DNA of 22,227 bases, from positions 1-22,227 of IMG/VR virus record IMGVR_UViG_3300029813_000181. One strand, 5' to 3'. The first letter of the stretch is position 1, and each line of letters opens with the position of its first letter. This stretch comes from a virus. Positions 3,297 to 22,227 of the stretch are shown piece by piece. The notes below the pieces were generated by a model. It saw nothing but the letters and a program-made list of their open reading frames with translations, had not been told where the DNA came from and did not search any database. Position numbers and translations under genes: made by a program.

Positions 3297-3818
3297 CGAA
3301 CTCTCCTCAAGCTGTAGTGATGCCGCGATGCGCTCGAACTCGCCCAGCCCGCTGATCACCGGGTCCGTGCAGAGCGCCACGTGGATGATTGGTCTTCGGT
3401 ACTCGTTACCCTTCCCGTCAGTGAACGATGCTGGCGAGAAGATACTGACGTCTGACCGGCGGGACGCGGCGAGCCCGTCCTCACCGACCAGGTCCACGAG
3501 CGCGACCAGCGAGCCGCCCTCCCGAAACATGTCAACCACCCAGCCCCGGTTCTTGTCGGGATCACCCTGCCCCTCGTGAGTCGCGGGGCAGGGGACTCGC
3601 ACGCCGTTCGCCGTCATCAGCTGGAAGGTCGCGACCCAGTGGTCGAGGAGCGTCTCGGTAATCTCGAAGGTGGTAGGACCCTTCACCCACCGACCCGTTT
3701 TCACCAGTTCCTTTCGGAACCGCTGAACGGGAATGCCCCTCTCCTCACGAACGGTGCCCGCGACCGCAGCCGTCGACTGAAAGAGAAACACGTAACCTTG
3801 TCCGTTCTGATCCGTCAT
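2766..3818 (-). CDS. Prohead protease with C-terminal scaffold (Mu I-like)
   Basis: This 350-residue protein has two parts. Residues 1-170 resemble the Mu I-type head maturation protease. A likely catalytic His81 sits in CPATHEGQGDPDKNRGWVVD, and Ser128 in SIFSPASF is followed by RRPIIHVALCTDPVISGL, matching the family's Ser region and the ending before the scaffold. Residues 175-350 are highly charged and helical, as expected for a scaffold that the protease later removes. The ATG at 3818 has no strong ribosome site, unlike most genes here; it lies 17 bases after the stop of the upstream gene. Low synthesis of protease relative to scaffold would make sense, because a second, strong start exists inside the frame. 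Confidence 0.85.
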   Translation of the reverse strand: MTDQNGQGYVFLFQSTAAVAGTVREERGIPVQRFRKELVKTGRWVKGPTTFEITETLLDHWVATFQLMTANGVRVPCPATHEGQGDPDKNRGWVVDMFREGGSLVALVDLVGEDGLAASRRSDVSIFSPASFTDGKGNEYRRPIIHVALCTDPVISGLGEFERIAASLQLEESSMDWKKIKEALGIKEEMKDENAETLVLSAVGVLDQKVKDAASAMKASDDKTKTIQTALDELKLSGQEVQVDPVVLKLVGDARRQKLDALVTGSRITKSTRDKLVDVFLGKDDAALSLSIQRRDENLDKLLDILADNKPAHVGEQTGPQTTVVLSGGAKVDDSPLVKDAEKRAVTAAK

Positions 3819-4030: not shown

Positions 4031-4217
4031 CCCTGAGTTCTCCTATCCTCTTGAGCGGCGTCTGGTCGTCCGTCGCCTCCCAGTAGCCACGAGCGAGAAT
4101 CGAGTTGGCGTGCAGTGACCCGCGTCGCTGTCCTTGCTTGAAGTCGAGAACGTGACCGAGCGTTCCCTCGACCGCGAGGTATACTTCTTGACCTTTCCTA
4201 CGAGCGATGATTCTCAT
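3993..4217 (-). CDS. Small hypothetical protein
   Basis: This 74-residue, basic protein starts MRIIARRKGQEVYLAVEGTL. The first 30 residues look like a beta-hairpin rich domain (EVYLAVEGTLGHVLDF), the rest is polar with many Arg. Its ATG overlaps the TGA of the large MuF fusion gene (ATGA), and AAGGTGATC serves as ribosome site within that gene. It has no recognisable catalytic motif. Because it directly follows a possible toxin-like C-terminal domain, an immunity or chaperone role is conceivable, but nothing in the sequence shows it. Confidence 0.6.
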   Translation of the reverse strand: MRIIARRKGQEVYLAVEGTLGHVLDFKQGQRRGSLHANSILARGYWEATDDQTPLKRIGELRDVTRTQMPYTRV

Positions 4218-8021: not shown

Positions 8022-9302
8022 CTAAGTAATGACCACGGCTTGATCACCCTCTACCTCCACCCGAATCGGGAAGAGACGGCTGACCACGTATCCCATGGCG
8101 TCGGTCATGTGACCGATGTCTCCCGAGTCGTTTACCTCACTCGTGCCTGGCTTGTAGTGCCGCACCCTGAGGTCGTCGATCAGTCTCTTGCACCGCGGGT
8201 CGACGAATGCTCGCCGGTCGCCCGCGGCGTTGAGAAACATAGCGTTGCACCCCGCGAAGCGATCAGCTACTCGAGGATTACTTCGCGGGTAGTGAACGCT
8301 GCGACCCGCTTTCTTGAAGCGCTCGTCGTTCAGGATCTGCTTGTAGTCGCTCTTGCTCGCGGAAGTCTTACGGGCCGCGCCCGTCGCGTCGCCAAAGAAC
8401 TGGAACCCACTCTTGTGCGACGAGTAGCGACCCCACAGGATGTCGAGCGTGGCTCGCGTGTTCGTGTCGCGCTTGAAGATCTCGTCAACCCACTCGACGC
8501 GGTCGGGGTAGGCGTGTCCGATTACCCAGGACATGGGGTCCACGTTGAAGTCACTTCCCACCACGATGGGTCGCGACGAGTCGTAGGCACAGGGTCTGAC
8601 GTTGAACTCCTCGTCGAAGGCGTAGAAGATGCCACCGCCGGCGGTCTCCCAGCACGCGTTGAACTGCTCGTTGTAGTCCTTCGGGTCGAGGTTCTGCTGC
8701 GCCCACCGCAGCGTGTCGTGCGGGACGATGTCCTCGCTCGGCCAGGTGAACGTCGCCGCGTTCTCGATCTTGCCCGTCGCCGCGTCCTCGCTGAACTGGC
8801 GGAACTCTCTCGCGCCCACGCCCGCCCGCTTCGGCACGCCGATGCGCCAGCACCACCCGTGTCTCCAGACGAGGGCTGGGAGAACGTTCAGCTCGAAGAC
8901 CTTCGGCTTCTGGTCACACGACTCGTCGAGCACGCACCCGTCCCACTGGACGCCCTCGATCCGCTGCGGCTTATCCATCCCCACGACGAGGATCATCGAC
9001 CCGAAGATCGTCTCGATGCTGAGCTCCGACTCGCTGACGTGGGCGATCCAGTCCTTCGGCGTGAGCGCTTTCAGATCTCGCCACGCGGTTCGCTTCGCCT
9101 GCTCGTGGGTGGGCGCACCGTAGAAGTATCGTGGGTCGCCCCACTCCTTCCGCACCGGAAGAAAGCGGACGAGGCGGCGCTTAGCTAGCTCAGTCTTCCC
9201 GCCGCCTCGACCCGCCGGCACGGCAACGAACCTACTCGAGCATCGCCACAGGGCTCGCTGTACTGGGTGAGGCTTAAAGGGATTCCAGCGCTTCGTCAGC
9301 AT
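8022..9302 (-). CDS. Terminase large subunit
   Basis: This 426-residue DNA packaging motor has both expected domains. The ATPase has a Walker A-like loop AGRGGGKTE (residues 30-38) and Walker B VLDES (124-128, Asp126 and catalytic Glu127). The RNase-H-like nuclease has acidic residues in VVGSDFNVDP (Asp251), FFGDATG (Asp305) and GHMTDAMGY (Asp401). This layout fits Terminase_6-type large subunits. GGAGACGG stands just before the ATG. It overlaps the 3' end of a small gene by 29 bases and lies just before the portal gene. All key residues are present, so the protein appears functional. Confidence 0.93.
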   Translation of the reverse strand: MLTKRWNPFKPHPVQRALWRCSSRFVAVPAGRGGGKTELAKRRLVRFLPVRKEWGDPRYFYGAPTHEQAKRTAWRDLKALTPKDWIAHVSESELSIETIFGSMILVVGMDKPQRIEGVQWDGCVLDESCDQKPKVFELNVLPALVWRHGWCWRIGVPKRAGVGAREFRQFSEDAATGKIENAATFTWPSEDIVPHDTLRWAQQNLDPKDYNEQFNACWETAGGGIFYAFDEEFNVRPCAYDSSRPIVVGSDFNVDPMSWVIGHAYPDRVEWVDEIFKRDTNTRATLDILWGRYSSHKSGFQFFGDATGAARKTSASKSDYKQILNDERFKKAGRSVHYPRSNPRVADRFAGCNAMFLNAAGDRRAFVDPRCKRLIDDLRVRHYKPGTSEVNDSGDIGHMTDAMGYVVSRLFPIRVEVEGDQAVVIT

Positions 9303-9456: not shown

Positions 9457-10090
9457 CTTTCACCTCTGGTGCTGAGACATCGTCCATCTCTCGGACGACC
9501 TCGTCGGGCGTGAGATCGGTCCCGGGCGTCGTGTCGTCCGTCGTCGGCATGCGTACCGTGTTGTGAATCTCTTCCTCAATCTTGCCCGCCAGCTCGTCGT
9601 CCTGGCACACCCGGTGCACGGCCCTGACGACCTGAAGGATCAGCAAGTCCACCACCCGCAGGCTAACCTTGTCCTCGCTGTCCTTCTCGATTCGCGTCAC
9701 TGCCAGGCACATCTCACGCACGCGAGTCATAGCGTCGTGCAGGCAGCTGACGGCGAGCGCCTTCGTCTCGTCGACCTTCGACTTCTGGGCCGCCTCCCAC
9801 AGCTTGATCGCGTCGAGCGCCGCGAGCCGCGTGAGCGCGAGCTCCTCGTAGAGCTCGACCTGCTCGTGATGAGGCGAGGAGGCTAGCTCGGCGAGCTGGG
9901 CTCGGAGCGTCTTACCGAGATGCCTGCCGTACTTACCCAAGCCTTTCTCCGAGACGACCTCGCGACGACCGCCGTGGAACTGGCAGAAGTCCCGGCCCTT
10001 GAGAGCCCACTTGCGGCAGCGCTGTCGCGTGTGCATCGACCTCGCGTGACACTGCCTCGGGCTACCCTCGGGCGGTGATCCGCTCAGCAT
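9401..10090 (-). CDS. Putative terminase small subunit with N-terminal zinc motif
   Basis: This 229-residue protein lies directly before the large terminase, where the DNA-recognition subunit is expected. Residues 14-41 form a Cys/His motif (C14, C25, C36, H39) in QCHARSMHTRQRCRKWALKG ... CQFHGG, a pattern I know from phage proteins at this locus. The middle (about 60-165) is a long helical region rich in Leu, Ala and Glu that could oligomerise. The last 55 residues are acidic and Thr/Asp rich, probably disordered. An AGGAAG site precedes the ATG inside the glycosyltransferase gene. The small-subunit call rests on position and motif, not on a clear helix-turn-helix. Confidence 0.65.
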   Translation of the reverse strand: MLSGSPPEGSPRQCHARSMHTRQRCRKWALKGRDFCQFHGGRREVVSEKGLGKYGRHLGKTLRAQLAELASSPHHEQVELYEELALTRLAALDAIKLWEAAQKSKVDETKALAVSCLHDAMTRVREMCLAVTRIEKDSEDKVSLRVVDLLILQVVRAVHRVCQDDELAGKIEEEIHNTVRMPTTDDTTPGTDLTPDEVVREMDDVSAPEVKDDEGDKGAADATPLEVDC

Positions 10091-10757
10091 ACAGCTTCCT
10101 CATCTGGGACGGGGTGAAGTCGTAGCCACCCACGACGCCGGGCGGCAGCGGCGGCCCGTCGACGAGCACGCGAGTCTTCCCGTCCGTGTACCGCTGGATC
10201 CACGGTACGTCGAGCGTCGGGAACCCAAGGTACCTCGCGCTTCCGGTCACGTACACGTCCGACGCGAGACCGTCGTTCCTGGTGCTCTTGTCGTAGCGCA
10301 TCGTCCCCAGCATTGTCCAGTACCTGAACGCCGGATCGTGATGCCTGATGCCGCGACGGATCTTGCTCACCAGCTCGCGAGGAATCACGTACAGCGACCC
10401 GCCGATGAACGGCCCGCCAAAGTCAACCTCGACGCCGCACATCGCTCGAGGTGGCCGCAGGCGAGCTAGCATCTCGAGATCCACGTAGGCGTCGTCGTCA
10501 GCCTTCACCATGTAGTCGTATTCGGCGTTGCCGAGCGACCACCCGTACGCCCGCATCACCTTATGTATGAACGCGGAGTACCGGTCGCCGGTCGTGACGA
10601 GCAAGGTACCGTTCGAGAACGATTCGCGACGAGCACCACCCTCCACGAACACGACCCGCACGTTGTCCGGGGGACTGCTGGCCCACGTCCGTCGCGAGGC
10701 GAACGTCTTCGCCCGCTGACAGCGACAGCCCATCACCATCACGAGGAACCTAACCAC
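10062..10757 (-). CDS. GT31-like glycosyltransferase
   Basis: This 231-residue protein resembles the galactosyltransferase/fringe group (GT31). Near the start it has VMVMGCRCQRAKTFASRRTW, matching the usual hydrophobic strand, Cys and R.TW motif. YDYMVKADDDAYVDLEML at residues 81-98 supplies the metal-binding DDD triad, followed by GGPFIGGSLYVIPRELV, a region that in this fold holds the acceptor loop. It would transfer a sugar from a nucleotide-sugar donor. The GTG start at 10757 has a GA-rich ribosome site and overlaps the sigma-like gene by 19 bases; its end overlaps the small terminase by 29. A sugar-transfer gene wedged between a sigma-like factor and terminase is unusual. Confidence 0.75.
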   Translation of the reverse strand: MVRFLVMVMGCRCQRAKTFASRRTWASSPPDNVRVVFVEGGARRESFSNGTLLVTTGDRYSAFIHKVMRAYGWSLGNAEYDYMVKADDDAYVDLEMLARLRPPRAMCGVEVDFGGPFIGGSLYVIPRELVSKIRRGIRHHDPAFRYWTMLGTMRYDKSTRNDGLASDVYVTGSARYLGFPTLDVPWIQRYTDGKTRVLVDGPPLPPGVVGGYDFTPSQMRKLYAERITARG

Positions 10758-11209
10758 TTTCTCGCCTTTCTCAGAACCGCGCTCAGCTGGTAGTGCACGG
10801 TACTCTTCGTCACGCCTAAAACACCCGCGATCTCCTCAAAGGTTAGGTCCTGCCAGAACCTCAGGACGAGCAGCGCTCGCTCGTACTCGTCCAGTCTCGT
10901 CCATACGTATTGTATCGCCTCGCCGACGTCTTGTTCGGGTTCTTTCTGGACGACATCGTTGACGAGAGGGACGGTTTCGAGACGACGCCGACCAAGCTCC
11001 TTCAGGTACTCGTTCCGCAGGGCGCGGTAGAGATAGGTTCCCCACCTAGCTCGCTCCGGGTCCCACCGCTGACGAGCACGGTGCACGGTCTCAAGCCCGA
11101 TCCCGTAGGCCATGTCGTCCCAGTCCTGGCTCGGTATCCGTAGGCGACGAAGCAGGTCGTAGCACATAGGTAAGTTCTCTACGATCACTTCCCAGTCGGA
11201 CGCGTCCAT
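10739..11209 (-). CDS. Sigma-70-family-like transcription factor
   Basis: The ATG at 11209 gives 156 residues; the frame extends to 11347, but that Arg-rich part is a shadow of upstream genes. Residues 28-75 resemble region 2 (DDMAYGIGLETVHRARQRWD then PERARWGTYLYRALRNEYLK), including the WGTYLYRALRN helix that in sigma factors meets core polymerase and the -10 element. Residues 103-152 resemble region 4: a helix, then DLTFEEIAGVLGVTKSTVHY, a clear helix-turn-helix for the -35 element. The size suits an ECF-like or phage sigma factor. It lies two genes before terminase, so it may direct late genes. A core-independent DNA-binding regulator is the alternative. Confidence 0.75.
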   Translation of the reverse strand: MDASDWEVIVENLPMCYDLLRRLRIPSQDWDDMAYGIGLETVHRARQRWDPERARWGTYLYRALRNEYLKELGRRRLETVPLVNDVVQKEPEQDVGEAIQYVWTRLDEYERALLVLRFWQDLTFEEIAGVLGVTKSTVHYQLSAVLRKARKWLGSS

Positions 11210-11367
11210 ATTACTCGCAGCCCTCGGTGCCACCCCTCGACGAGCTTCCTTGCCGCGTCCGCGGTGGACGCCTCGATCACGAGCTCCAGACCTCCCCGGT
11301 CGTCGTCGAGCGACCTTGCCGCGGAGGCCAGCTTCGAGGTCACGCACACTACCCAGTGCCTAGCCAT
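11185..11367 (-). CDS. Small hypothetical protein
   Basis: This 60-residue protein begins MARHWVVCVTSKLASAARSL and continues with LELVIEASTADAARKLVEGW, a beta-alpha-beta-like pattern with basic ends. GAGGAAC precedes the ATG within the pyruvyl transferase gene, which it overlaps by 19 bases; its end overlaps the sigma-like gene by 25 bases. The ending (WHRGLRVIWTRPTGK) is short and basic. It resembles short phage proteins of one compact domain; function is not recognisable. Confidence 0.6.
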   Translation of the reverse strand: MARHWVVCVTSKLASAARSLDDDRGGLELVIEASTADAARKLVEGWHRGLRVIWTRPTGK

Positions 11368-12062
11368 GTCACGTTCCTCATGTCACGCAGGCAGTAGTCG
11401 TACATCGCCCAGTTCTTGAAGTAGGAGTTCTGGTAAAGGGTAACCCTCCGACCCATAAGCGCCGCACTCATCGCGAGGTGAACGCGGTCAGTCCAGACCC
11501 GTCGGTGATCCGCGATCTCGTCGAGGTACTCGTCCACCGACCCCGTGACGGTCCTCGAGCTAATGTCGTTCAGCCCAGCACGTGTCATCTGGTGACACTC
11601 TCTGTTACCGCGGTAGGACTTGAGCAAGTCGCGGGACGGCTTGCGACTCGCCCACGGGTTGAAGTCGAACGTCATCACGGCACACGGGGCGAGGATCGAC
11701 CCGGGCACGGCGTTGTGACTCACCCGCTCCCGGCAGAAGACCACGTCCATCTTCGCGAGGGCAACGGCGTTCGGACCCCACGCGGTGCAGGGCAACATCA
11801 CCACCCTCCAACTCGCGGCCCGCACGCGTCTCAGCCTCTCGAGGTTACGACCGTAGAGGTGTGCCCAGCCACCGCCGCCCCCGTGAACGATGAGCAGCTT
11901 AGTCGTCCGCAGGTTCTCGTACTCCATAATGTCGTACTCGTAACCGACGAGCTCCTGGGCCTCTGCCCGACCAATGAGCTGGTCCCCGCGGTTACCGCCG
12001 TGTGGCACGTACGCGAACCTACCCAGACCCCGCAACGTGTCATGCACCTTATCCCAGTTCAT
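11349..12062 (-). CDS. Polysaccharide pyruvyl transferase family protein
   Basis: This 237-residue protein matches the polysaccharide pyruvyl transferase family (WcaK/CsaB/ExoV group). It has GGNRGDQLIGRAEAQEL (residues 22-38), HGGGGGWAHLYGRNLERL (60-77), MLPCTAWGPN (89-98), VFCRERVSH (108-116) and the C-terminal TDRVHLAMSAALMGRRVTLY (191-210), the conserved ligand-binding TDR-H-A motif. Members move pyruvate from phosphoenolpyruvate to a sugar, giving a charged ketal on surface polymers. At 237 residues it is shorter than many family members but keeps both halves. A GGAGGTG ribosome site lies in the overlapping small membrane gene. The exact sugar acceptor is unknown. Confidence 0.82.
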   Translation of the reverse strand: MNWDKVHDTLRGLGRFAYVPHGGNRGDQLIGRAEAQELVGYEYDIMEYENLRTTKLLIVHGGGGGWAHLYGRNLERLRRVRAASWRVVMLPCTAWGPNAVALAKMDVVFCRERVSHNAVPGSILAPCAVMTFDFNPWASRKPSRDLLKSYRGNRECHQMTRAGLNDISSRTVTGSVDEYLDEIADHRRVWTDRVHLAMSAALMGRRVTLYQNSYFKNWAMYDYCLRDMRNVTWLGTG

Positions 12063-12230: not shown

Positions 12231-12406
12231 CGTTTTCTTCGCATCTGTCCTGTCGCCCTCGCGTCGCGAAAAGCACGAAACTGAATATGCCCCCTCACGA
12301 TCCTGAACTCGATCCGGTGCACGAGACCGCAGTCACAACACGCCAGCTTGTAGCTCCTGCGGTTCGGCTGTATCCAGGCACCATCCTCGTGCCGCGTGTA
12401 CCTCAC
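12227..12406 (-). CDS. Small conserved CCDCGLVH phage protein
   Basis: The start is GTG 12406 because it forms a GTGA overlap with the methyltransferase stop; the same frame stays open to 12589, but that part is a shadow. The 59-residue protein reads RYTRHEDGAWIQPNRRSYKL, then ACCDCGLVHRIEFRIVRGHI, then a basic end with RATGQMRRKR. I recognise this CCDCGL-H ... F-R ... RAT-R pattern as a widespread short phage protein of unknown role. The Cys/His set suggests a bound zinc ion. It ends in an ATGA overlap with the 22-residue membrane peptide. Confidence 0.75.
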   Translation of the reverse strand: MRYTRHEDGAWIQPNRRSYKLACCDCGLVHRIEFRIVRGHIQFRAFRDARATGQMRRKR

Positions 12407-12957
12407 GGCTTGACCACGAACCACGACGGCTTGCGCTCGAGCATCGTCGCGAAGAAGCCGTGGTGCCTGACCTCGTCGAGGAACCGGCCGACGCCCAGCA
12501 CGACGTTGTTGAACACGCCGTCGGGCGACACGAACGTCGTGAAGTCGTGACCGCCCAGCACTCCGCCCGACCGCACCTTCGGCCACCACGTCGCCGCATC
12601 CTCGTAGGCGCTGGGAGCGTCGTGACGAGCGTCAATGTACGCGAGGTCGAAGTGACCGTCATCGAAGAGCTTCGCCGCGGTAACCGACCGCATGCGATAA
12701 AGACTCGCGATGTCCAACCGCTGTAGGTCAGCGTGCCACGCGTCCATCGTCTCCTGCGTGACCTCACTATCATAACCCTCGATCAACCACGGATCGACGC
12801 CCACCAGCTCGAGTAAGCCTGGGCAGGTCGCGAGATGCTTCAGATGCCGTCCGCTCGCGACGCCGACCTCGACGACCCGCCTGAACTCGAGCCGCTCCAT
12901 CACCAGCGGCAGGTCCCATCTCTTTCGCATCGTTCTCAGCTCGTCGATCACCGACAT
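12403..12957 (-). CDS. Class I SAM-dependent methyltransferase-like protein
   Basis: The ATG at 12957 has AAGGAGACTGAG upstream; the frame extends to 13131 only as a shadow. The 184-residue protein has the Rossmann methyltransferase start VVEVGVASGRHLKHLA (residues 28-43), acidic VGVDPW after strand 2, then HFDLAYIDARHDAPSAYEDA (102-121) and SGGVLGGHDFT (130-140). These features match the Methyltransf_24 type, often found in sugar or surface-polymer clusters. It is similar in layout to the methyltransferase at 17684-18232 (IDGDH and AGHDY there), so two related enzymes exist. The target could be a sugar hydroxyl; this is inferred from neighbours. Confidence 0.75.
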   Translation of the reverse strand: MSVIDELRTMRKRWDLPLVMERLEFRRVVEVGVASGRHLKHLATCPGLLELVGVDPWLIEGYDSEVTQETMDAWHADLQRLDIASLYRMRSVTAAKLFDDGHFDLAYIDARHDAPSAYEDAATWWPKVRSGGVLGGHDFTTFVSPDGVFNNVVLGVGRFLDEVRHHGFFATMLERKPSWFVVKP

Positions 12958-13190
12958 CTCAGTCTCCTTACCCGTCGTATCGCGCACCGCGGGATCGTCA
13001 TTCGTCCTAGCACCAGCTCGCCACCCACGCTTTGGGCAACGGTAACGTAGCCCGGCTTGTCCTCCTCGAGGAACCCGACCGAGCAACACTCGACCGGCAG
13101 CATCGGCTCCGGATCGTCGCGAGGTTCCCACTCATCCGAGATACCTCTCGCATCGACCCACTCGACGAGGACTATATTACGGCTCAACAC
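12948..13190 (-). CDS. Small conserved phage protein
   Basis: The 80-residue protein starts at GTG 13190, with GGGGGTGG ahead of it, and overlaps the SEC-C lipoprotein gene by 14 bases. The sequence [40 protein letters not shown] and [16 protein letters not shown] has a pattern I know from short phage proteins: V-W-DA, a Cys-SVG turn, a strand-rich core and a closing IP..AI..I..L segment. It looks like a small beta-barrel type domain. The function is not known to me. Confidence 0.65.
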
Positions 13191-13687: not shown

Positions 13688-13827
13688 CTCGTTCTCGCCG
13701 GTAGGTAAGGCTGCGGCCGAACCTGGGAGTGCTTGAGCAGCTTCAGCGTCCACCGCTGCGGCTTGCCGATGCGTGCCATCACCTCGCGCTCGAAGAGGGT
13801 GGGATCACGCTTGACTCGCTGGGTCAC
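13684..13827 (-). CDS. Small basic hypothetical protein
   Basis: The chosen GTG at 13827 makes a GTGA overlap with the stop of the four-Cys protein gene and has AAAGGAAC as ribosome site. The 47-residue protein (VTQRVKRDPTLFEREVMARI, then GKPQRWTLKLLKHSQVRPQP) is very basic and could bind nucleic acid. An ATG at 13869 would extend it by 14 residues but would overlap the upstream gene by 46 bases. It ends in an ATGA overlap with the membrane protein gene. No family is recognised. Confidence 0.55.
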   Translation of the reverse strand: MTQRVKRDPTLFEREVMARIGKPQRWTLKLLKHSQVRPQPYLPARTR

Positions 13828-14063
13828 CAGAGTTCCTTTCTGAACAGGGACATTGCACATGCCCGGCACAACGCTCCGACTCGCCTGGCAGGGGCTGCCC
13901 GTTCGTTCTTAATAAAACGTTGCGTTTGATCATGCCTTAACATAACCCACTGCCTGGACCTCGGCTTGTACGTCTTGCAGACCGGACAGTACCTGTCTGG
14001 CACTAACTGGTCAAGCTCGCTTCTTCGACGCAGTTGACGCCTAACGCTCTGTGAACGGCCCAT
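13824..14063 (-). CDS. Small four-cysteine protein, copy 2
   Basis: The 79-residue protein starts at ATG 14063, joined TGATG with the stop of its upstream relative. It carries CPVC (26-29) and CRAC (66-69), a likely zinc ribbon, separated by KPRSRQWVMLRH and ARRVGAL. The preceding gene has the same elements (CPVC, LRSRQWVLLTH, ARRVGALCKSC), so the two are duplicates. Twenty bases are identical between the copies (13867-13886 and 14097-14116). The N-terminus is Arg-rich. A similarly basic zinc protein could bind nucleic acid. Function is unknown. Confidence 0.7.
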   Translation of the reverse strand: MGRSQSVRRQLRRRSELDQLVPDRYCPVCKTYKPRSRQWVMLRHDQTQRFIKNERAAPARRVGALCRACAMSLFRKELW

Positions 14064-14365
14064 CACATCTTCTTCAGTCGCATTGCACAAGACTTACACA
14101 ACGCTCCGACTCGCCTAGCATTACTTGACCCAGGGCAACGAACCTCGTGGGTCAGCAGTACCCACTGCCTCGATCTTAGCTTCGTGTGCCCACACACCGG
14201 GCAGCGTCTCGTGGGCACCCGCAGGTCAAGCAACTTGTTACGATGCTCGTACCTTCGTTCCTTGAGCGGTCGACCCGGGACGGACACCTTCGCGTCCACT
14301 GCGTCCAGGGCCAGGCGAAGGTCGCGTGCTATGCGCTTCAACTTTCTAACACGTTGCACGTACAT
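14063..14365 (-). CDS. Small four-cysteine protein, copy 1
   Basis: This 100-residue protein begins MYVQRVRKLKRIARDLRLAL, a basic helical region, followed by CPVC (55-58), LRSRQWVLLTHEVRCPG and CKSC (90-93). The four Cys suggest one zinc-binding domain. It is the first gene after the AT-rich gap, so its mRNA leader begins there. No good ribosome site precedes the ATG; an in-frame stop lies 18 bases upstream, so the start cannot be much earlier. The downstream copy has a shorter N-terminus but the same core, pointing to duplication within this locus. Confidence 0.7.
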   Translation of the reverse strand: MYVQRVRKLKRIARDLRLALDAVDAKVSVPGRPLKERRYEHRNKLLDLRVPTRRCPVCGHTKLRSRQWVLLTHEVRCPGSSNARRVGALCKSCAMRLKKM

Positions 14366-15488: not shown

Positions 15489-15664
15489 CGTCTTAGGAAC
15501 CTTCCGAGCCAGTTGAGCCCGTCGCCACACGGGCATTCCTCGACCAGGTCCGTGCTCGTGTACCCGGCCCCACCACACTTGTGACATAGGAACAGCCAGT
15601 CGCGGAAACGTATTCGCCAGCTTCGATGCATCTTGTCTAGCTTCGTCCAGTCAATCATTAGCAT
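15485..15664 (-). CDS. Small protein with DnaJ-like zinc motif
   Basis: The 59-residue protein has CHKCGGAGYTSTDLVEECPC followed by GDG, that is C-x2-CGG-x-G ... C-x-C-x-G. This is close to one zinc-binding module of the DnaJ Cys-rich region. A basic helix (KMHRSWRIRFRDWLFL) precedes it. ATG 15664 is chosen because GAGGAG lies nine bases ahead; ATG 15658 (TAATG with the upstream stop) is also possible. Without a J domain it cannot act as a full co-chaperone. Such isolated modules are common in phage proteins of unknown role. Confidence 0.65.
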   Translation of the reverse strand: MLMIDWTKLDKMHRSWRIRFRDWLFLCHKCGGAGYTSTDLVEECPCGDGLNWLGRFLRR

Positions 15665-16500
15665 AAGAACGATCTCCTCACCCACTCCATCTGGGCCACC
15701 AGGACGTCGATCACGCTAGCCCGGTGTCGCTTCCTGAAGCTGGCCGGCAGCAGGTCGAAGTGATAGTGGCCCAGCGCCTGCGTCGTCTGGCTGCTCGTTG
15801 GCTGCCACTGTCGGCGACGCTTCATGTCGTCACTGCACGCGGCCTCCCACTCGCCCAGGTAAGTTCCGTTGCGGCGAGCGGCGAGCAGGTAGGTGCACGA
15901 CTGGATCACGCCGAATTGCGGCGCGACGTTCACCGCGTCCACCACGTCTCGCAGGCCGAGGAGACTCGGCCGGTAGTCACAGTTGTGACCCTTCACGAGG
16001 TGGGACGTTCGCCGCGGCCGTATCTTCCCCGTGTTCCTGAGCCCGTCGATCAGACAGCCGGTCGGGTAGCTGACGAAGAGACACGTCTCCAGCTTACCCG
16101 CGATCTCGAGGAAGTGATCGCTTACCTCATCTCCCTCGCCCGGCCCGAATTCGAAGAGATGATCCGGGAACGCCGCGTTGAGCTCCTCGCACACGCCCAC
16201 GTCAGTCGTGTGGGCGTGTGTCAGGTAGCACCCGTTCTCAATGTCCTTCTTAGTCGTCTCGAGCCGGTTCTCGCGAAGGTGATCACGCTGCCACTCGACG
16301 TGGCCCACGGGATAGCGACGGTGGAGCGCGGCCATGAGATCCGGCATGTCCGGCCCGGCCAGTCCCGTGTAGCCCGAGCCCTGCACGCCTACCTGGCCCT
16401 CGCTGGCGCACAGGCCGACGGGCAGCATGCTTAGTGCCGAGAACTTGTGGGCCGCCTCGACGCACTCGACGCTCATCGGTCCGAACCATAGCTTGATCAT
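15658..16500 (-). CDS. GatZ/KbaZ-like class II sugar-bisphosphate aldolase-family protein
   Basis: This 280-residue protein resembles the GatZ/KbaZ (D-tagatose-bisphosphate aldolase subunit) TIM-barrel family. SEGQVGVQGSGYTG (33-46) parallels the family TSNQVNQ-GGYTG loop, RDHLREN (72-78) the GDHLGPN loop, GHNCDY (171-176) the EAHSTDY motif, and NVAPQFGVIQS (191-201) the KVGPALTFA strand. It is shorter than GatZ (about 420). Family members work on sugar phosphates or assist aldolases. Here it sits in a sugar-activation block, so a role in making the sugar precursor is plausible. Some catalytic residues differ (Asn and Cys in GHNCDY), so exact chemistry is unclear. Confidence 0.6.
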   Translation of the reverse strand: MIKLWFGPMSVECVEAAHKFSALSMLPVGLCASEGQVGVQGSGYTGLAGPDMPDLMAALHRRYPVGHVEWQRDHLRENRLETTKKDIENGCYLTHAHTTDVGVCEELNAAFPDHLFEFGPGEGDEVSDHFLEIAGKLETCLFVSYPTGCLIDGLRNTGKIRPRRTSHLVKGHNCDYRPSLLGLRDVVDAVNVAPQFGVIQSCTYLLAARRNGTYLGEWEAACSDDMKRRRQWQPTSSQTTQALGHYHFDLLPASFRKRHRASVIDVLVAQMEWVRRSFLC

Positions 16501-17687
16501 CGGTAACCTCCGTAGAGCTCGTGCCAGCGGTCGTCGCCCACCGTCTCGCCGTCGAGCAGGTCGTCGATCATCTGGTCGAGTAGGGAAAAGTCAGGCTTGA
16601 GCAGCTCACGCCACCTCTCGAGCTGGCTGTCCGGCCCCATCTTCGAGAGACGGGACAGGTCCCCGGGCTTCGTGACACGCCACGGGTCGTCGAGCGGCAC
16701 CATCTTCCCGTACGGGTCCCACGTGTAGGGATCAGTCCCGTCGCCGTAGAGCAGCGGGACGCATTCCTGGGCCATGAGAACCCACGGCTTACCAGTGTAG
16801 AAGTGCGATCCCGCGGACACGCAGGGACAGTAGCGGGCCTGACCCAGTACCGCCCGAACCTCGTCTGGCTTGATGACGCCGGGACTGAGGTAAGACCAGG
16901 GCGTCCTCGCCCAGCCCCGGCCGTACAGCCGGAACCCATGCTCGACGAGCCATCCCATGTTCGGGTCGTCCAGTACCGCGTGCCAGGACTGCTCGCGCTT
17001 ACGCTGCTTGCACCCGTCGTAGATGTGGGCGTGGGCGACGCACGTGCAGGGAACGGTCTTCTCGAGACCGAGGAAGACGTCCGGCACGGCCCACGACTCC
17101 GCCCTCGCGTACACGCTGCGGCGCTGGTACCGTACCCCGCCGACCACGGTCGAGTAGGTCCCGGCCCACTGATCCAGAAGCGCCGCGGGAACGCACCAGG
17201 GCCAGCCCATGGACATTTCCTGGTCCTTTGGGTACGTGCGGGGATCATTGTTCACGACGAGACGCGGAAGCTTGAAGTGCTGGATCGCGTTCAGCATCGG
17301 CGCCGTGTAGCGGATGCACGCGGCCTGGGTAGTGGTCTGCTTCGGATTGTTGATGAAGGACATCGTGGGCGAGTAGCCGGCGACGTTGACGAACCCGACG
17401 AACGGCGCGTACTCGTCGAGCTCCGCGACGTCGGCCGCGAGACACTCGTCCTGGTAGGCTCCGGTCGACATCTCGTTTAGATCCTGGAGGTGAGGTTGCA
17501 CGACCGTGAGGCCTCTCGGAACCTCGCCGAGGTACTTCCCGAAGTAGACGAGTCGGACGTCACGGCGCTCGAGCAGGTGAAGGATCGTTCCCTCGGTCTC
17601 GCCCTGCTCTCCCACGGCGCTCGACTTCCGCGCCTCCGCCCGGGTACGGTAGACGCCGCCGCCCTTCGCGATCAGTAACGTTTTCAT
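16497..17687 (-). CDS. Glycosyltransferase-like protein (GT-B type suspected)
   Basis: The ATG at 17687 forms an ATGA overlap with the methyltransferase stop and begins MKTLLIAKGGGVYRTRAEAR. The 396-residue protein has an N-terminal Rossmann-like part and a C-terminal part with FRLYGRGWARTPWSYLSPGV then CPCVSAGSHFYTGKPWVLMA and QECVPLLYGDG, reminiscent of the donor site of GT-B glycosyltransferases, where a glycine-rich loop and a conserved acidic residue bind the nucleotide sugar. It ends in an ATGA overlap with the GatZ-like gene. The assignment rests on fold pattern and neighbours, without a diagnostic motif, so moderate doubt remains. Confidence 0.5.
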   Translation of the reverse strand: MKTLLIAKGGGVYRTRAEARKSSAVGEQGETEGTILHLLERRDVRLVYFGKYLGEVPRGLTVVQPHLQDLNEMSTGAYQDECLAADVAELDEYAPFVGFVNVAGYSPTMSFINNPKQTTTQAACIRYTAPMLNAIQHFKLPRLVVNNDPRTYPKDQEMSMGWPWCVPAALLDQWAGTYSTVVGGVRYQRRSVYARAESWAVPDVFLGLEKTVPCTCVAHAHIYDGCKQRKREQSWHAVLDDPNMGWLVEHGFRLYGRGWARTPWSYLSPGVIKPDEVRAVLGQARYCPCVSAGSHFYTGKPWVLMAQECVPLLYGDGTDPYTWDPYGKMVPLDDPWRVTKPGDLSRLSKMGPDSQLERWRELLKPDFSLLDQMIDDLLDGETVGDDRWHELYGGYR

Positions 17688-18232
17688 AACACCACTTTCC
17701 ATACCTTGTTCATGGGCGCCACGTCCTGCGGGTACTTCTGGACGCGGTCGCCGTACCTTTCCTTGAGGACAGACCGGATCCCGGCGTACATGGGTGAGCC
17801 ACCGGCGACGCGGTAGTCGTGACCCGCCAGCACGAGGCGTGTTCTTGACTCCCAGGCGTCCAGGTCGCGTCTCAGTCTTTCCGGGCGGTGATCGCCGTCG
17901 ATGAAGACGACGTCAGTCCACTCGACGATGCTCGCGGCTGCCGCACTGTCTGACTCCACCAGCTTCACGGGCAGGTGGAACTCGTGGACGGCACGAAGAA
18001 ACTCGGCCCGCACGTCTAGGCTGACCCTGTCTTTCAGGTCGATACCTTCTTGTGAGAAGTTGTCTACCGCCCACACCTCGACGTCCAGGTGACGAACAAC
18101 CTCCGCCACCGAGCACAGCGAGCGGCCCATCCAGCAGCCGATCTCGACGAGACGACGCGGGTGGTGGTCCTCGAGGAGGCGACGGTAGGCGATCATGTCA
18201 CCACTGTTGAAGGCACCCTGCGGTAGCTTCAT
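17684..18232 (-). CDS. Class I SAM-dependent methyltransferase-like protein
   Basis: This 182-residue protein has RLVEIGCWMGRSLCSVAEVV (27-46), the glycine-rich SAM loop; VWAVDNF (53-59), the acidic strand-2 end; VVFIDGDHRPERLRRDLDAW (108-127); and LVLAGHDYRVAGG (133-145). This is the Methyltransf_24 pattern, where IDGDH and GHDY mark a metal-linked active site in some members. Both ends are ATGA overlaps, with the cupin before and the glycosyltransferase after, so it is surely part of the sugar operon. It likely methylates a sugar or sugar nucleotide. A related enzyme occurs at 12403-12957. Confidence 0.78.
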   Translation of the reverse strand: MKLPQGAFNSGDMIAYRRLLEDHHPRRLVEIGCWMGRSLCSVAEVVRHLDVEVWAVDNFSQEGIDLKDRVSLDVRAEFLRAVHEFHLPVKLVESDSAAAASIVEWTDVVFIDGDHRPERLRRDLDAWESRTRLVLAGHDYRVAGGSPMYAGIRSVLKERYGDRVQKYPQDVAPMNKVWKVVL

Positions 18233-18567
18233 CCGACGAACTCCGTGTCACCGCCGTCTCTCACGCTGTCGCTGTCGTTAGGATCGGGGGTACTGCACTC
18301 GGCGTAGGTACACCCGACGGTGCTTAGCATCGCGTGACGGCGGTTGATGGGTATCACGACGAAGCTTCCCGGCCCGTGCATCGTGAACCGGTGGACGTCC
18401 CACTGGATAGTGAGCATCCCGGAGATCACGATGATCGTCTCGCGCTTCATGTCGTGATGATGAAAGCTGGTGCTCTTGCCGGGCACGATGCTGAGCAACT
18501 TGACCTCGTAGGCGTCGCACCGGTCGACGTGCATCTCGACGCCCCATCTCTTGACTCTCGATCTCAT
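18229..18567 (-). CDS. Cupin-domain sugar-related protein
   Basis: ATG 18567, in ATGA overlap with the nucleotidyltransferase, gives 112 residues; the frame runs to 18741 as a shadow. It has the first cupin motif as HHHDMKRETIIVISGMLTI (36-54; H36, H38 and E43 as likely metal ligands) and a second with PGSFVVIPINRRHAM (66-80; H79). This resembles the C-terminal cupin of mannose-6-phosphate isomerase/GMP enzymes and stand-alone sugar cupins. It may isomerise or bind a sugar phosphate, or regulate the adjacent nucleotidyltransferase. The last 20 residues are acidic and likely disordered. Confidence 0.78.
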   Translation of the reverse strand: MRSRVKRWGVEMHVDRCDAYEVKLLSIVPGKSTSFHHHDMKRETIIVISGMLTIQWDVHRFTMHGPGSFVVIPINRRHAMLSTVGCTYAECSTPDPNDSDSVRDGGDTEFVG

Positions 18568-19181
18568 GACTCGCTCCAGTAGTCCAGGTAGCTCTCGGCC
18601 GTGCCGACCTCGTGCCACGATCCCTTGACCTGACGAGCCCGCGCCTTGATCATGTTGAGGTACTCGACGCTGGTCAGCTGGCTGGAGAGGCCTACCTCGA
18701 TGTGCTCGCGACCCAGTAGGTACCAGCCCGCGAGACACCACCGCTCGGAACCGCTCTCACGCTCTTGCCATCTCATCTTCTGGAAGTCGTACCAGTCGAG
18801 CTGGGCTGGGTGTCTCCACCTCACGCTGACCAGCGGCGCGGTCTCTCCGACCTCGGGACCGCAGTCGCGCTCGTCGTACACGTTGTCACAGAACGTGATG
18901 AGCGCCAGATCCTCGACGAAGTTCGCGGCGCACGTGATCGCGTCCCGTACGCCGTCTGGCTCGCGCTGAACAGCGTAGTTGAGACCGCTCGGCTCGAGGG
19001 TCTGGAGGACCAGCGGCACGGCGCTGTTCGGTCCCACGACGATCACGACCCGCCCGCATCTCGCTCGGCGACAGAAGTCGATGGCTGACGTGATCGCGGG
19101 TCGACCGTTCCTGAGCGGGAGTAGGGGCTTGTTGGGCAGTCGTGTTGCCTCACCGGCTGCCAAGACGATTCCGCATCGCAT
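18564..19181 (-). CDS. Sugar-phosphate nucleotidyltransferase
   Basis: This 205-residue protein has the nucleotidyltransferase start GIVLAAGEATRLPNKPLLPL (4-23): the glycine-rich loop with R-L and the conserved Lys18 that binds the sugar phosphate. A metal-binding Asp is likely in LITFCDNVYDE (about 94-104). The C-terminal KGSWHEVGTAESYLDYW matches the W-D-x-GT-x-x-Y closing motif of NDP-sugar pyrophosphorylases. It would form NDP-sugar and pyrophosphate from a sugar-1-phosphate and an NTP; the base is not predictable. AGGAGATAGCAC supports the ATG, which lies inside the HAD gene (32-base overlap). Confidence 0.82.
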   Translation of the reverse strand: MRCGIVLAAGEATRLPNKPLLPLRNGRPAITSAIDFCRRARCGRVVIVVGPNSAVPLVLQTLEPSGLNYAVQREPDGVRDAITCAANFVEDLALITFCDNVYDERDCGPEVGETAPLVSVRWRHPAQLDWYDFQKMRWQERESGSERWCLAGWYLLGREHIEVGLSSQLTSVEYLNMIKARARQVKGSWHEVGTAESYLDYWSES

Positions 19182-19530
19182 GTGCTATCTCCTTGAGACC
19201 AACGTTCCTGCCCGAGGTAAACGCCAGGGCGCTGGTGCCCTGGCCGGGCTTCTCGTCGTTCAGCATGACTCGGGGTCCGGAGGTAACGCCCATGATGAGC
19301 TGATCCCAGTACAAGCCTTCGACCTTTAGTGACTGCTCGGTGGCGTACCTCACGCATTCCTTTCGTGCGGTGATGATGACGATTCCCCACCCCCGGGCCT
19401 CCCACTCGTCGAAGGCCTCCCTCACCCCGGGCAGTAGCTCGGCGTTCCCGTACCACTGGGCGGACGCCCCCTTCCCGCGATGACGAAGAACTAGACCATC
19501 AAGATCGACGAAGACGGTGGGGGGTTTCAT
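19150..19530 (-). CDS. HAD-superfamily phosphatase
   Basis: ATG 19530 (ATGA with the kinase) gives 126 residues; the frame upstream to 19665 is a shadow. It begins PTVFVDLDGLVLRH, the HAD motif I with nucleophile Asp9 and general acid Asp11. Motif II is IVIITARKE with Thr54. The end has RVMLNDEKPGQGTSALAF, with Asn91-Asp92 in the motif IV position. No large cap domain is present. It resembles small sugar-phosphate phosphatases of polysaccharide clusters. In this context it may dephosphorylate a sugar bisphosphate, as GmhB does in heptose synthesis, between two kinase steps and activation. Confidence 0.8.
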   Translation of the reverse strand: MKPPTVFVDLDGLVLRHRGKGASAQWYGNAELLPGVREAFDEWEARGWGIVIITARKECVRYATEQSLKVEGLYWDQLIMGVTSGPRVMLNDEKPGQGTSALAFTSGRNVGLKEIAHAMRNRLGSR

Positions 19531-20180
19531 CGAGTCATCTCCTCGATCTCTGCTATGCGGGCGCGGGCGAACGTCACCCCGACGGGGCGAACGTGACGGA
19601 GCATGCGAACGTAGTGGGAGTAGAGTAACGCGTAGTGTACCGAGCTCGCCAGGAATCGGGGCCACTGGTCGGGCATCGGATCACCCTCGTACACGTGACG
19701 GAACCCGTCCAGCGACTGCATCAGCTTCGCCTCGTCGATCTCCCTGCACGTGAGACCCCAGTCGTTACCCGGGTCAATGAAAACGATTCGCCCGTCGGGC
19801 GTCGCGACGCAGTTCGCGAGGGTGAGGTCTCCGTGGGTCAGCGTGACGGGATGCAAGTAGTCGTGAAGGATCGGAAGGAGAACCCGGTGGCATTTCTCGC
19901 CATCTAGATCCGCCTCGCGTGCTCTGTTAAGGACGTATCTGGAGTAAGCGAGTCTATTGTCGTAGGTTACCGCCTGTTGCTCTGCGGTCCCCCAGATCGC
20001 TTTCTGGGCACATAAGTATACCCGCCGCCAGGAGCGAGGTCGACGTCCTACCTCGTACTCGTACGAGACGGTCGTCGCCGTGGAGGTGATTTGCTTCGGC
20101 CGGCAGTCCGGTGGTATCGTGTGCCAGAAGTAGCTCCAGCGAGCGACCTGATTCTTTGTCCCAGTCTTCGTTACTCGCAT
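19527..20180 (-). CDS. APH-family small-molecule kinase
   Basis: This 217-residue protein has the catalytic loop TLTHGDLTLANCVATPDGRI (113-131), where Asp118 is the base and Asn123 binds metal, followed by VFIDPGNDWGL (133-143), the DFG-equivalent with Asp136. This is the aminoglycoside phosphotransferase/choline kinase pattern. The N-lobe is short and its ATP-binding Lys is not obvious, possibly in AQKAIWG (58-64). In polysaccharide gene clusters such kinases phosphorylate sugars or alcohols. It lies between the cytidylyltransferase-kinase fusion (10-base overlap) and the HAD phosphatase (ATGA), so it likely acts in the same pathway. Antibiotic resistance is unlikely here. Confidence 0.75.
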   Translation of the reverse strand: MRVTKTGTKNQVARWSYFWHTIPPDCRPKQITSTATTVSYEYEVGRRPRSWRRVYLCAQKAIWGTAEQQAVTYDNRLAYSRYVLNRAREADLDGEKCHRVLLPILHDYLHPVTLTHGDLTLANCVATPDGRIVFIDPGNDWGLTCREIDEAKLMQSLDGFRHVYEGDPMPDQWPRFLASSVHYALLYSHYVRMLRHVRPVGVTFARARIAEIEEMTR

Positions 20181-21313
20181 CGTCGTACCCTCACCCTTTC
20201 ACCCGGGCCACCGACGACCGCCATGTAACCGCCGTGACCGGCGCCCTGGATGAAGTACCCGAGGCAGTCGTTCGGTGGCTTGACGTGCTGGTGGTAGGTC
20301 GGGCAGACGCGAGCGAACGCGAGACAGCTCGCGGTCATGGCCAGGCCGAGCCTCTCGGCGTTGAGGGAACTCACCGCGTCTCGTACCGCGTAGGTGCTGG
20401 CCGTGAACTGCTGCACGAGACCGTGGTCGTACTCGAGAACGTAGTGCTCGCCCCTGGGTCGCGGCTGGGTCTGGCGGACTCGGACGTTAGCCTCGAGGAA
20501 GTCGAGCACCTCGTCGTTCACCGTGTTCTCGATCCTGGGCCACGGGCCGCCGCTGTACTCCATCACGCTCAGGCCGGGAAGACACAGGCTGATCGGATCG
20601 ACGCTGCCCGTGACGTATCGCGGAGCGAAGGATCCCCAGGGGAAAGCGCCACCTGGCTCCACGCGGGTCGTCGGCTCGTTCTCCACGGCGAAGGCAATCC
20701 TCGCGACGTCCAGCGGGTCAAGGTAGCCCGGCCAGCTTCCTCCGAACACGTTGCCCAGGGTTCGTCGCGAGCTGGTCGCCATGCCGCTGCGGTCGTCGAA
20801 GTTACGGCCCTCAATGCTGAAACCCACGCAGAGGCCGCTGGACAGCTTGCTAAGGGACATCTGGTCGGCGCCGGTGGTTAGTACCACCCTGCCAGGCAGG
20901 GTCCCTCCGCGTGCGTCTGAGCTGCTTCTCGCGCCGTACGGCTGGGATCGGGGCAATAGCACGTACCCCGCGCCCGCCTCGCGGCACGCCTGCTGCTGGA
21001 GACTGGCGATCTCGGGGTCTAGGTCGTCGCCGGCCACCACCATGTCGACGCTGTCGAGAAGGTGTCGCCAGCTCACGTTGCCCAGACCCCAGTCACCGTC
21101 CCTCAACATCACTGCTCGTACGACACACTTCAGGTTGGCAACCATGAACAGGCGTTCCGCCTCACCGTGAAGCGGACGGGTCGCCTTGACTCGCATCATC
21201 TGTCGGTCTGTCCCGACGCCCACCCAGAGGTCGTGTTGCTGGGCGACCTGTCTGAGGAACGCCACGTGCCCTGACGTCAGGCCGTCGAAGTAGCCAGCCA
21301 CCAACGCGATCAT
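20171..21313 (-). CDS. Cytidylyltransferase fused to GHMP-type sugar kinase
   Basis: This 380-residue protein has two enzymes. Residues 1-135 form a cytidylyltransferase-like domain: ALVAGYFDGLTSGHVAFL (3-20), with SGH where many have H-x-GH, and ARSSSDARGG (128-137), similar to the ISSTxxR motif. Residues 138-380 resemble GHMP kinases: LPGRVVLTTGADQ (139-151), SGMATSSRRT (176-185) in place of the G-L-GSSAA loop, GSVDP (236-240) and GAGHGGYMAVVG (357-368) near the end. Known HldE fuses a PfkB kinase to this transferase; here the order and kinase family differ. It could phosphorylate a sugar and activate it. Ser/Thr changes in the kinase loop are noted. Confidence 0.65.
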   Translation of the reverse strand: MIALVAGYFDGLTSGHVAFLRQVAQQHDLWVGVGTDRQMMRVKATRPLHGEAERLFMVANLKCVVRAVMLRDGDWGLGNVSWRHLLDSVDMVVAGDDLDPEIASLQQQACREAGAGYVLLPRSQPYGARSSSDARGGTLPGRVVLTTGADQMSLSKLSSGLCVGFSIEGRNFDDRSGMATSSRRTLGNVFGGSWPGYLDPLDVARIAFAVENEPTTRVEPGGAFPWGSFAPRYVTGSVDPISLCLPGLSVMEYSGGPWPRIENTVNDEVLDFLEANVRVRQTQPRPRGEHYVLEYDHGLVQQFTASTYAVRDAVSSLNAERLGLAMTASCLAFARVCPTYHQHVKPPNDCLGYFIQGAGHGGYMAVVGGPGERVRVRRCE

Positions 21314-21486
21314 TTCGTGTCCCCTATCTTGATGCGAAGTCGTCGGAGCGTCTCACGAACGGACGAGTTCATCGTGTTCTCTTCGATGAGCCGTATCTCC
21401 GTTACGAGCGACTCGAGGTCAGCTTCCTTGACGTATCGTCGAATCGTCACGGCCAGAACATCGACGTCTTTGTAGGACGCGGTCAT
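21310..21486 (-). CDS. Small protein, tandem repeat gene B
   Basis: The 58-residue protein starts MTASYKDVDVLAVTIRRYVK, is helical and charged, and ends NSSVRETLRRLRIKIGDTK. Its last 19 residues match those of the next gene upstream almost exactly. It starts with an ATGA overlap with that gene and ends with an ATGA overlap with the cytidylyltransferase-kinase fusion. AAGGGACACGAG serves as ribosome site, itself inside the repeat. Function is unknown. Confidence 0.6.
   Translation of the reverse strand: MTASYKDVDVLAVTIRRYVKEADLESLVTEIRLIEENTMNSSVRETLRRLRIKIGDTK
21311..21370. repeat. 60-bp direct repeat, copy 1
   Basis: This copy and 21484-21543 match at 56 of 60 positions, spaced 173 bases apart. 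Each contains the 3' end of a small gene and the start codon with ribosome site of the following gene. The core GATGCGAAGTCGTCGGAGCG and following bases are identical. Confidence 0.85.
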
Positions 21487-21635
21487 CTCGTGTCCCTTAT
21501 TTTGATGCGAAGTCGTCGGAGCGTCTCACGAACGGACGCGTTCTTGGTTGTGTTAGTCTTAAGTGGCCGATCTTCTCGCATACGGTGAACTCTTCGTGCT
21601 TGTTCCTTCTCGTCAACTTCGCCTACGTCGATCAT
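21483..21635 (-). CDS. Small protein, tandem repeat gene A
   Basis: The 50-residue protein starts at ATG 21635, just after the stop of the upstream gene, with AAGGAAAC ahead. It reads MIDVGEVDEKEQARRVHRMR and ends NASVRETLRRLRIKIRDTR. The first 30 residues differ fully from its neighbour while the last 19 are nearly the same, so the pair arose by duplication of the 3' part only, or by conversion. Basic helices could bind nucleic acid. Confidence 0.6.
   Translation of the reverse strand: MIDVGEVDEKEQARRVHRMREDRPLKTNTTKNASVRETLRRLRIKIRDTR
21484..21543. repeat. 60-bp direct repeat, copy 2
   Basis: It is the partner of 21311-21370. The four differences lie at repeat positions 4, 14, 18 and 56 in the plus-strand sense. 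Two of them change an amino acid (Gly/Arg and Lys/Arg in the protein tails) and the others are nearly neutral. Confidence 0.85.
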
Positions 21636-21960: not shown

Positions 21961-22034
21961 AGCTTGTTCCACAGTTCGGTGTTGTAGACCTGACCGGGGG
22001 CGATGTAACGGTGTGCCTCCCAATAGGTCGCGTG
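21942..22034 (-). pseudogene. In-frame continuation of the glycosyltransferase-like gene past TGA
   Basis: After the TGA at 22035-22037 the same frame continues for 30 codons to a TAA at 21942-21944. It encodes HATYWEAHRYIAPGQVYNTE followed by LWNKLCTAKS. Codon use is GC-rich at third positions like the neighbours and the residues look protein-like. Read together, YHQ-stop-HATYW looks like one continuous protein end. The TAA would then overlap the next gene by 19 bases, matching the local spacing habit. Confidence 0.5.
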
Positions 22035-22227
22035 TCACTGGTGGTAACACAGCCGGAACGCTCCGGGAATGAAGCCGGAGTCAACCATCAAGTCCGCCAG
22101 CGCCCGGTCCCACCACTCGTAGGCGAGGAGGAAGTCCGGGAACCCGTCGCGGACCGCGTGCCACCAGCCGCGGGTGAGCCAGAAGAGGTCGACACCTTCC
22201 CAGGGCGTCACGTCGTCGCGGGTGGCG
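22035..22227 (-). CDS. Glycosyltransferase-like protein, C-terminal part (runs off right edge)
   Basis: The frame enters from the right edge and encodes 63 residues before a TGA: DDVTPWEGVDLFWLTRGWWH, AVRDGFPDFLLAYEWWDRAL, ADLMVDSGFIPGAFRLCYHQ. The pattern of D-L-F/W-L, a WW pair, FPD, an E-W-D triplet and a closing YH is like phage GT-A-type glycosyltransferases, whose late part often ends in YHE-x-H-x-x-YW. Here the stop falls exactly inside that closing motif. The gene is therefore either truncated by a mutation or read through. The N-terminal catalytic part is outside the window. Confidence 0.55.
   Translation of the reverse strand, partial: ATRDDVTPWEGVDLFWLTRGWWHAVRDGFPDFLLAYEWWDRALADLMVDSGFIPGAFRLCYHQ

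Follow-up and report, generated by a model that had tools for sequence, protein, structure and literature searches.

An overlapping series of eight genes in a viral genome record contains a GatZ-like protein and a candidate pathway for nucleotide-activated sugar synthesis

The stretch of DNA analyzed here (the window) is the whole IMG/VR virus record IMGVR_UViG_3300029813_000181, which comprises 22,227 bp and probably represents a fragment of a phage genome. Nearly all genes of the window lie on the minus strand. Between positions 15658 and 21313, eight open genes, all on the minus strand, overlap from neighbor to neighbor without a break:

20171-21313, minus strand: CTP-transferase-like (HldE-C/RfaE-II/TagD type) N-domain followed by a C-half of about 250 amino acids (PF01467, 4e-7; TIGR02199, 1e-9)
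19527-20180, minus strand: APH/fructosamine-kinase-like small-molecule kinase (weak Pfam and profile match)
19150-19530, minus strand: HAD phosphatase (weak in Pfam; family profile, 91 bits)
18564-19181, minus strand: NTP-transferase of the RmlA/GlmU/MobA fold (PF12804, NTP_transf_3, 1e-9; PF00483, 2e-7)
18229-18567, minus strand: cupin of the PMI-II C-terminal type (PF01050, 4e-8)
17684-18232, minus strand: class I methyltransferase (Methyltransf_24, 1e-12; near rhamnosyl O-methyltransferase/CmcI)
16497-17702, minus strand: 401-amino-acid protein, GT-B-like by eye only, without a family match
15658-16500, minus strand: GatZ/KbaZ-like TIM barrel of the class II aldolase fold (profile and predicted fold)

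Counted from 20171-21313 to 15658-16500, the successive overlaps are 10, 4, 32, 4, 4, 19, and 4 nt. The initial annotation had described eight consecutive genes joined by overlaps, and both the coordinates and the overlaps of 4 to 32 nt agree with that description. Likewise, its assignments of the nucleotidyltransferase, the cupin, and the methyltransferase were corroborated by the NTP_transf_3, PMI-II cupin, and Methyltransf_24 matches listed above. Further genes recognized in the window are as follows:

1310-2329: major capsid protein
2766-3818: head maturation protease
4214-6841: MuF-type protein
6717-8012: portal
8022-9302: terminase
10062-10757, minus strand: weak GT31/Galactosyl_T-like protein (PF01762, Galactosyl_T, 4e-4, below the cut-off)
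10739-11347: sigma factor
11349-12062, minus strand: polysaccharide pyruvyl transferase, a possible glycan-capping enzyme (PF04230, 7e-8)
12403-13131, minus strand: another methyltransferase of the Methyltransf_24 family, located farther along this strand (PF13578, 5e-13)

The structural module is common to the window and its terminase relatives among viral contigs, the near ones of which exhibit approximately 54-64% terminase identity. The NTP-transferase was found in 0 of the 10 terminase relatives searched, and because all 10 lack it, the sugar genes probably constitute an addition to this phage lineage. The GT31-like gene is inserted between the sigma-factor gene and gene 9401, which adjoin each other in two relatives (L003/L004), as revealed by synteny. 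Both a GT31-like enzyme and a pyruvyl transferase had been placed further along the series at the outset; the latter is borne out by its PF04230 match, while for the former the gene is present but its identity is weak. A tblastn search against phages yielded no match for the pyruvyl transferase.

To compare the window with other viruses, we used profiles of the module families that were built without window sequences and for which shuffled controls scored at most 7 bits. The HAD protein matched its module profile with 91 bits (E of 2e-27), and tblastn revealed relatives in phages, including marine virus AG-345-E15 (L030/L038) and Synechococcus phage S-SRM01 (L032). The cupin scored 50 bits against the module cupin profile and retains the conserved residues H45, E50, and H85 (numbering of an alignment sequence starting at 18588). 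The NTP-transferase reached a weak 8.6 bits against the profile of the fused viral NTP-transferase; its superfamily membership is clear, and neither tblastn against phages nor a single-protein scan of viral contigs recovered relatives. The short APH-like protein carries the motifs HGDLTLAN...IDPGN, matched the fructosamine-kinase and APH families (3e-4 and 0.02, both below the Pfam cut-off), and yielded a weak score of 16.4 bits (E of 2e-4) against the profile of the APH domain from the viral fusion proteins. Thus, of the APH kinase and HAD phosphatase named in the initial annotation, the phosphatase is well supported and the kinase weakly so. In the window, the NTP-transferase and the APH protein are encoded by separate, unfused genes, and any placement of the two in the subfamilies of their counterparts in the viral module is provisional.

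The gene at 20171-21313 had been interpreted as a fused transferase-kinase. Its N-terminal half is indeed CTP-transferase-like and closest to HldE domain II, with 37.9 bits against TIGR02199, for which the curated cut-off is 181.5. The kinase half did not hold: the C-terminal half has no Pfam match, scored 5.9 bits against the GHMP profile, and was not matched by the HddA model, motif III alone being GHMP-kinase-like; a single-sequence AlphaFold model of this half was uninformative (pLDDT of 33). Since a GHMP kinase was not confirmed here, the claim that two kinases are present was not borne out. Neither tblastn against phages nor a single-protein scan of viral contigs revealed relatives of the whole protein, and a plasmid search for relatives of the cassette proteins gave short CTP-transferase matches only. 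In three loci (L052, L081, and L134), the module has a relative of the N-domain nearby, and in two others (L111/L116) such a relative is fused to a HAD domain and stands beside a GHMP kinase. One possibility for the additional CTP-transferase-like gene of the window is that it acts on a second sugar. The 401-amino-acid protein, previously called glycosyltransferase-like, found no match in Pfam, PHROGs, NCBIfam, phages, or viral contigs, so that this identity lacks support from any library; a profile comparison with the families neighboring the module revealed none related to it.

The last gene of the series encodes the GatZ-like protein. This protein had no Pfam or NCBIfam match, and tblastn against phages found none. 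Nevertheless, it scored 45.6 bits against a full-length profile built without the window, with 0 of 500 shuffles passing an E value of 1, and 30.9 bits against a profile of Firmicutes GatZ/KbaZ-like proteins, on which E. coli GatZ itself scores 57 bits. The AlphaFold model was confident (mean pLDDT of 86.8), and its best structural matches included the GatZ-family entries 2fiq (Z of 22.1, 279 residues aligned) and 3txv (Z of 21.6), which cover 277-279 of the 280 residues. Class II fructose-bisphosphate (FBP) aldolases reached Z values of 21-22 with about 230 residues aligned, and as the two families tie to within one unit of Z, the fold by itself favors neither. Residues D73, H74, and H172 are invariant in 34 aligned sequences; Asp73-His74 and His172 of the window protein are the counterparts of Asp87-His88 and His257, which were proposed to be catalytic in E. 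coli GatZ (PMC11907403). At the position of the third metal ligand, a Glu (GTE motif; Glu171 of E. coli GatZ), the window protein has Gly121, with Glu122 one residue on. The score obtained without the window, the shuffles, and the predicted fold together uphold the GatZ-like identity given in the initial annotation. E. coli GatZ and KbaZ are reported to be C4-epimerases that convert fructose-6-phosphate to tagatose-6-phosphate (PMC11907403), and the window protein has its family and fold in common with the GatZ/KbaZ C4-epimerases of E. coli, A. tumefaciens, and S. meliloti. It differs from them in length (280 versus about 420 amino acids) and in its context, which is biosynthetic rather than catabolic. 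The analysis places GatZ-like proteins, which annotations have long treated as aldolase chaperones, in a biosynthetic and viral setting.

A single run of genes in AG-345-E15 encodes an NTP-transferase/APH fusion together with a HAD protein, a cupin of the PMI type, and a distant homologue of the GatZ-like protein. We scanned viral contigs with the GatZ-like protein alignment alone, so that the loci were not chosen by any other gene, and obtained 80 loci. The scan relied on two short peptide patterns, and the following frequencies are valid for that sample only: the GatZ-like gene was accompanied by APH in 79/80 loci, NTP-transferase in 78/80, HAD in 76/80, and cupin in 73/80, the NTP-transferase being fused to APH in 78/80, and all four were present in 69/80 loci (34/42 after dereplication at 70%). 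In several loci, the module directly adjoins the T4-type baseplate genes gp25 and gp6, and therefore those copies reside in phage genomes. Most loci with the GatZ front end sit among glycosyltransferases, epimerases, and aminotransferases. The core of the gene set recurs in about 70 viral fragments and some cellular metagenome-assembled genomes (MAGs), but the gene order and split of the window differ; judged by these comparisons, the window holds a version of the module that has diverged, its genes being split and rearranged, and is not a typical member. No close relatives of its cassette were found. In the open-access literature searched, we found no description of GatZ in phages or of this gene set, in line with the initial impression that the exact product looks undescribed. 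A set that recurs across some 70 viral contigs, and also in a few cellular genomes, can be named, with a testable step given to each gene.

A sister set emerged from a scan with the NTP-transferase/APH fusion of S-SRM01, which yielded 13 loci. A SIS isomerase lies beside the NTP-transferase in 13/13 of these, and HAD in 12/13, the remaining locus being truncated; GatZ was found in 0/13. Conversely, no SIS isomerase was found in the GatZ loci or in the window fragment, in which the initial annotation had already seen no GmhA-like isomerase. Coliphage RB69 belongs to the same picture, as its ORF053c (NTP-transferase), ORF052c (APH), and ORF051c (HAD) scored 50, 57, and 58 bits, respectively, against the module profiles; ORF055c is a SIS protein, and ORF051c carries the annotation phosphoheptose isomerase. 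The RB69 genes were proposed in 2018 to synthesize UDP-arabinose, with the biochemistry left open (PMC6024577), a 2021 paper noted the RmlA/APH homology and the phosphatase domain (PMC8056088), and in 2026 the arabinose donor pathway was still described as not fully characterized (PMC13390438). The phage-borne genes of RB69/Mosigvirus (ORF055c, ORF053_052c, and ORF051c), the presumed source of a non-host sugar donor, thus share three enzyme families with the viral module by profile, the window HAD included. However, they have a SIS front end, which the window lacks, no GatZ or cupin, a fused NTP-transferase/APH, and a tie to DNA arabinosylation. Because the S-SRM01 type and RB69 have SIS in place of GatZ and cupin, the kinase, phosphatase, and transferase most likely constitute an activation cassette that can be reused behind interchangeable front ends. 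What appears to be new is that RB69, S-SRM01-type, and GatZ-type viruses have this cassette in common and that none of the viral loci examined combines the two front ends. For the arabinose donor of RB69, the cassette suggests a concrete order of enzymes.

Directly observed are the parts, the order in which they overlap, and the fact that other viruses repeatedly carry them together; from the enzyme families and their context we infer the following order of steps. The GatZ-like barrel would epimerize a ketose phosphate at C4 by retro-aldol/aldol chemistry, by analogy fructose-6-phosphate to tagatose-6-phosphate, and the PMI-type cupin would convert the ketose phosphate to an aldose phosphate. 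These two proteins probably supply the isomerase that is absent from the window; in related phages, this place is taken by a SIS isomerase. The APH kinase would then phosphorylate the anomeric hydroxyl to give a sugar bisphosphate, the HAD enzyme would remove the distal phosphate, and the NTP-transferase, as its family suggests, would turn the sugar-1-phosphate into an NDP-sugar. Such a sequence would need no phosphomutase, since kinase, phosphatase, and nucleotidyltransferase would suffice to yield the NDP-sugar, as in bacterial heptose synthesis. Finally, the methyltransferases, the pyruvyl transferase, and the putative glycosyltransferases may modify and attach the sugar, the likeliest acceptor being a virion or host-surface glycan. 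Collectively, we consider it probable that the cassette constitutes a phage route to an NDP-activated rare sugar that neighboring transferases attach to a glycan.

The initial annotation had recognized in these genes the phosphorylate-dephosphorylate-activate logic of GDP- or ADP-heptose synthesis. Dozens of other viral loci that group these parts lend the logic good support, and it is that of the bacterial GDP-heptose pathway, in which GmhA, HddA, GmhB, and HddC isomerize, 1-phosphorylate, dephosphorylate, and activate. A heptose product is not supported: the N-domain closest to HldE domain II, the kinase-phosphatase-transferase order, and an HddA-like kinase near the module in AG-345-E15 (L030/L038) speak for a true heptose pathway (GmhA, HddA, and GmhB with HddC or HldE), but no SIS/GmhA and no HddA match were found in the window fragment, the NTP-transferase has no HddC match, the HAD protein is not GmhB, and every match lies far below the curated cut-offs. 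The kinase (APH, not proven GHMP), the HAD protein, and the isomerase of the window come from other families, and we hold a heptose product to be highly improbable. LicA and LicC pair a kinase of the APH fold with an NTP-transferase of the MobA/RmlA fold. The window and the module contain such a pair, which could point to kinase and cytidylyltransferase activating a small alcohol rather than a sugar; the near-constant presence of HAD, PMI-type cupin, and GatZ or SIS alongside points instead to sugar phosphates and leaves the small-alcohol reading little chance.

A donor for DNA hypermodification, as proposed for the arabinosyl-cytosine of RB69/Mosigvirus, appears unlikely to us. RB69 employs the same NTP-transferase/APH and HAD families and its DNA is arabinosylated (PMC6024577, PMC13390438), but glycosyltransferases, epimerases, and aminotransferases surround most GatZ-front-end loci, and the window encodes, besides a pyruvyl transferase, two methyltransferases of the small-molecule type, with no base-modifying enzyme seen in the fragment. 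It could also be argued that unrelated enzymes make up the window cassette as a mosaic that only resembles the conserved module, given its separate NTP-transferase and APH genes, their different order, and the weak similarity of the NTP-transferase. We find this very unlikely, as HAD, cupin, and GatZ-like proteins within one overlapping series all match profiles built without the window, and the same profiles found no match in 268 kb of DNA of terminase-related phages. The route to an NDP-activated rare sugar for a glycan remains our preferred reading. A broader version of it, which we offer tentatively and with considerable doubt, is that viruses widely possess a de novo route to an NDP-activated C4-epimer sugar, e.g., NDP-D-talose from fructose-6-phosphate via tagatose-6-phosphate, in which GatZ would act as a biosynthetic epimerase in front of a phosphomutase-free cassette, with different phages exchanging the front end. 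If true, this would account for the synthesis of the arabinose donor in RB69 as well.

Polysaccharide clusters of jumbo phages and cyanophages (P-SSM2 and others) likewise combine cupin isomerases, kinases, nucleotidyltransferases, HAD phosphatases, and glycosyltransferases, according to parts of a published account (PMC7824862) that name PfkB kinases and HIGH-superfamily transferases and mention neither GatZ nor an NTP-transferase/APH fusion. In the few cellular MAGs that carry the module, it lies beside glycan genes. A KdsC-like HAD protein, assigned by eye, was observed near the module in three MAG loci (L137, L140, and L155).

An additional gene recurred within the module that joins the GatZ-like, cupin, nucleotidyltransferase/APH and HAD genes: in 25 of the 80 viral loci, the module also encoded a protein of approximately 210 amino acids whose N-terminal domain is of the shikimate-dehydrogenase type (PF08501, 1e-15), in most cases directly preceding the GatZ-like gene (e.g., L091:7355-7987). 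Two loci, L111 and L116, carried other genes next to the module:

L111:10468-12130 (also in L116), HAD/CTP-transferase fusion followed by a GHMP kinase, adjoining the GatZ module

This pair possibly constitutes a second, heptose-like activation set. As for the HAD component, the RB69 counterpart, ORF051c (L200:1709-2095), scored 58 bits against the HAD phosphatase profile, which is at odds with its GenBank label, "phosphoheptose isomerase."

GatZ/KbaZ-like genes also occurred outside the module. Most of the cellular loci L120 to L133 (marine Bacteroidetes/Flavobacteria) harbored a lone GatZ-like gene, adjoining apparent succinate dehydrogenase genes, with the sugar module absent. A KbaZ-like gene was also found on the contig named "Listeria phage LM 4-11-1" (L039, OR846727.1) together with a PTS operon and an LPXTG-type protein, and this contig looks like bacterial chromosome.

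Elsewhere in the window, the following features were identified:

4214-6841, minus strand, MuF-type head protein with long C-terminal extensions (family matches)
10739-11347, minus strand, sigma-70-type factor, with gene 9401 and the terminase a short distance downstream
13824-14090 and 14063-14365, minus strand, two adjacent Zn-ribbon-like proteins (motifs RxCPVC...RSRQWV...RRVGALC)
21311-21370 and 21485-21543, direct repeat of approximately 60 bp in two copies, immediately upstream of the cassette
about 22033-22035, minus strand, TGA stop in an incomplete ORF at the window end

In a profile search, the extensions of the MuF-type protein matched DUF3626 (7e-13); they also gave a metalloprotease-like match, with an HEMGH motif, that fell below threshold (Pfam ATLF, 2e-4). 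In its C-terminal extensions, it resembles MuF proteins that bear effector-like cargo domains. The order of sigma factor, gene 9401 and terminase was retained in the terminase relatives L003 and L004. Judging by their common motifs, the Zn-ribbon-like proteins appear to have arisen by tandem duplication. Both copies of the direct repeat (aac[t/g]cgtccgttcgtgagacgctccgacgacttcgcatcaa...) fall within two small ORFs. Past the TGA, the reading frame stays open for approximately 30 codons (HATYWEAHRYIAPGQVYNTELWNKLC), and this stop may represent a nonsense change or a sequencing error.
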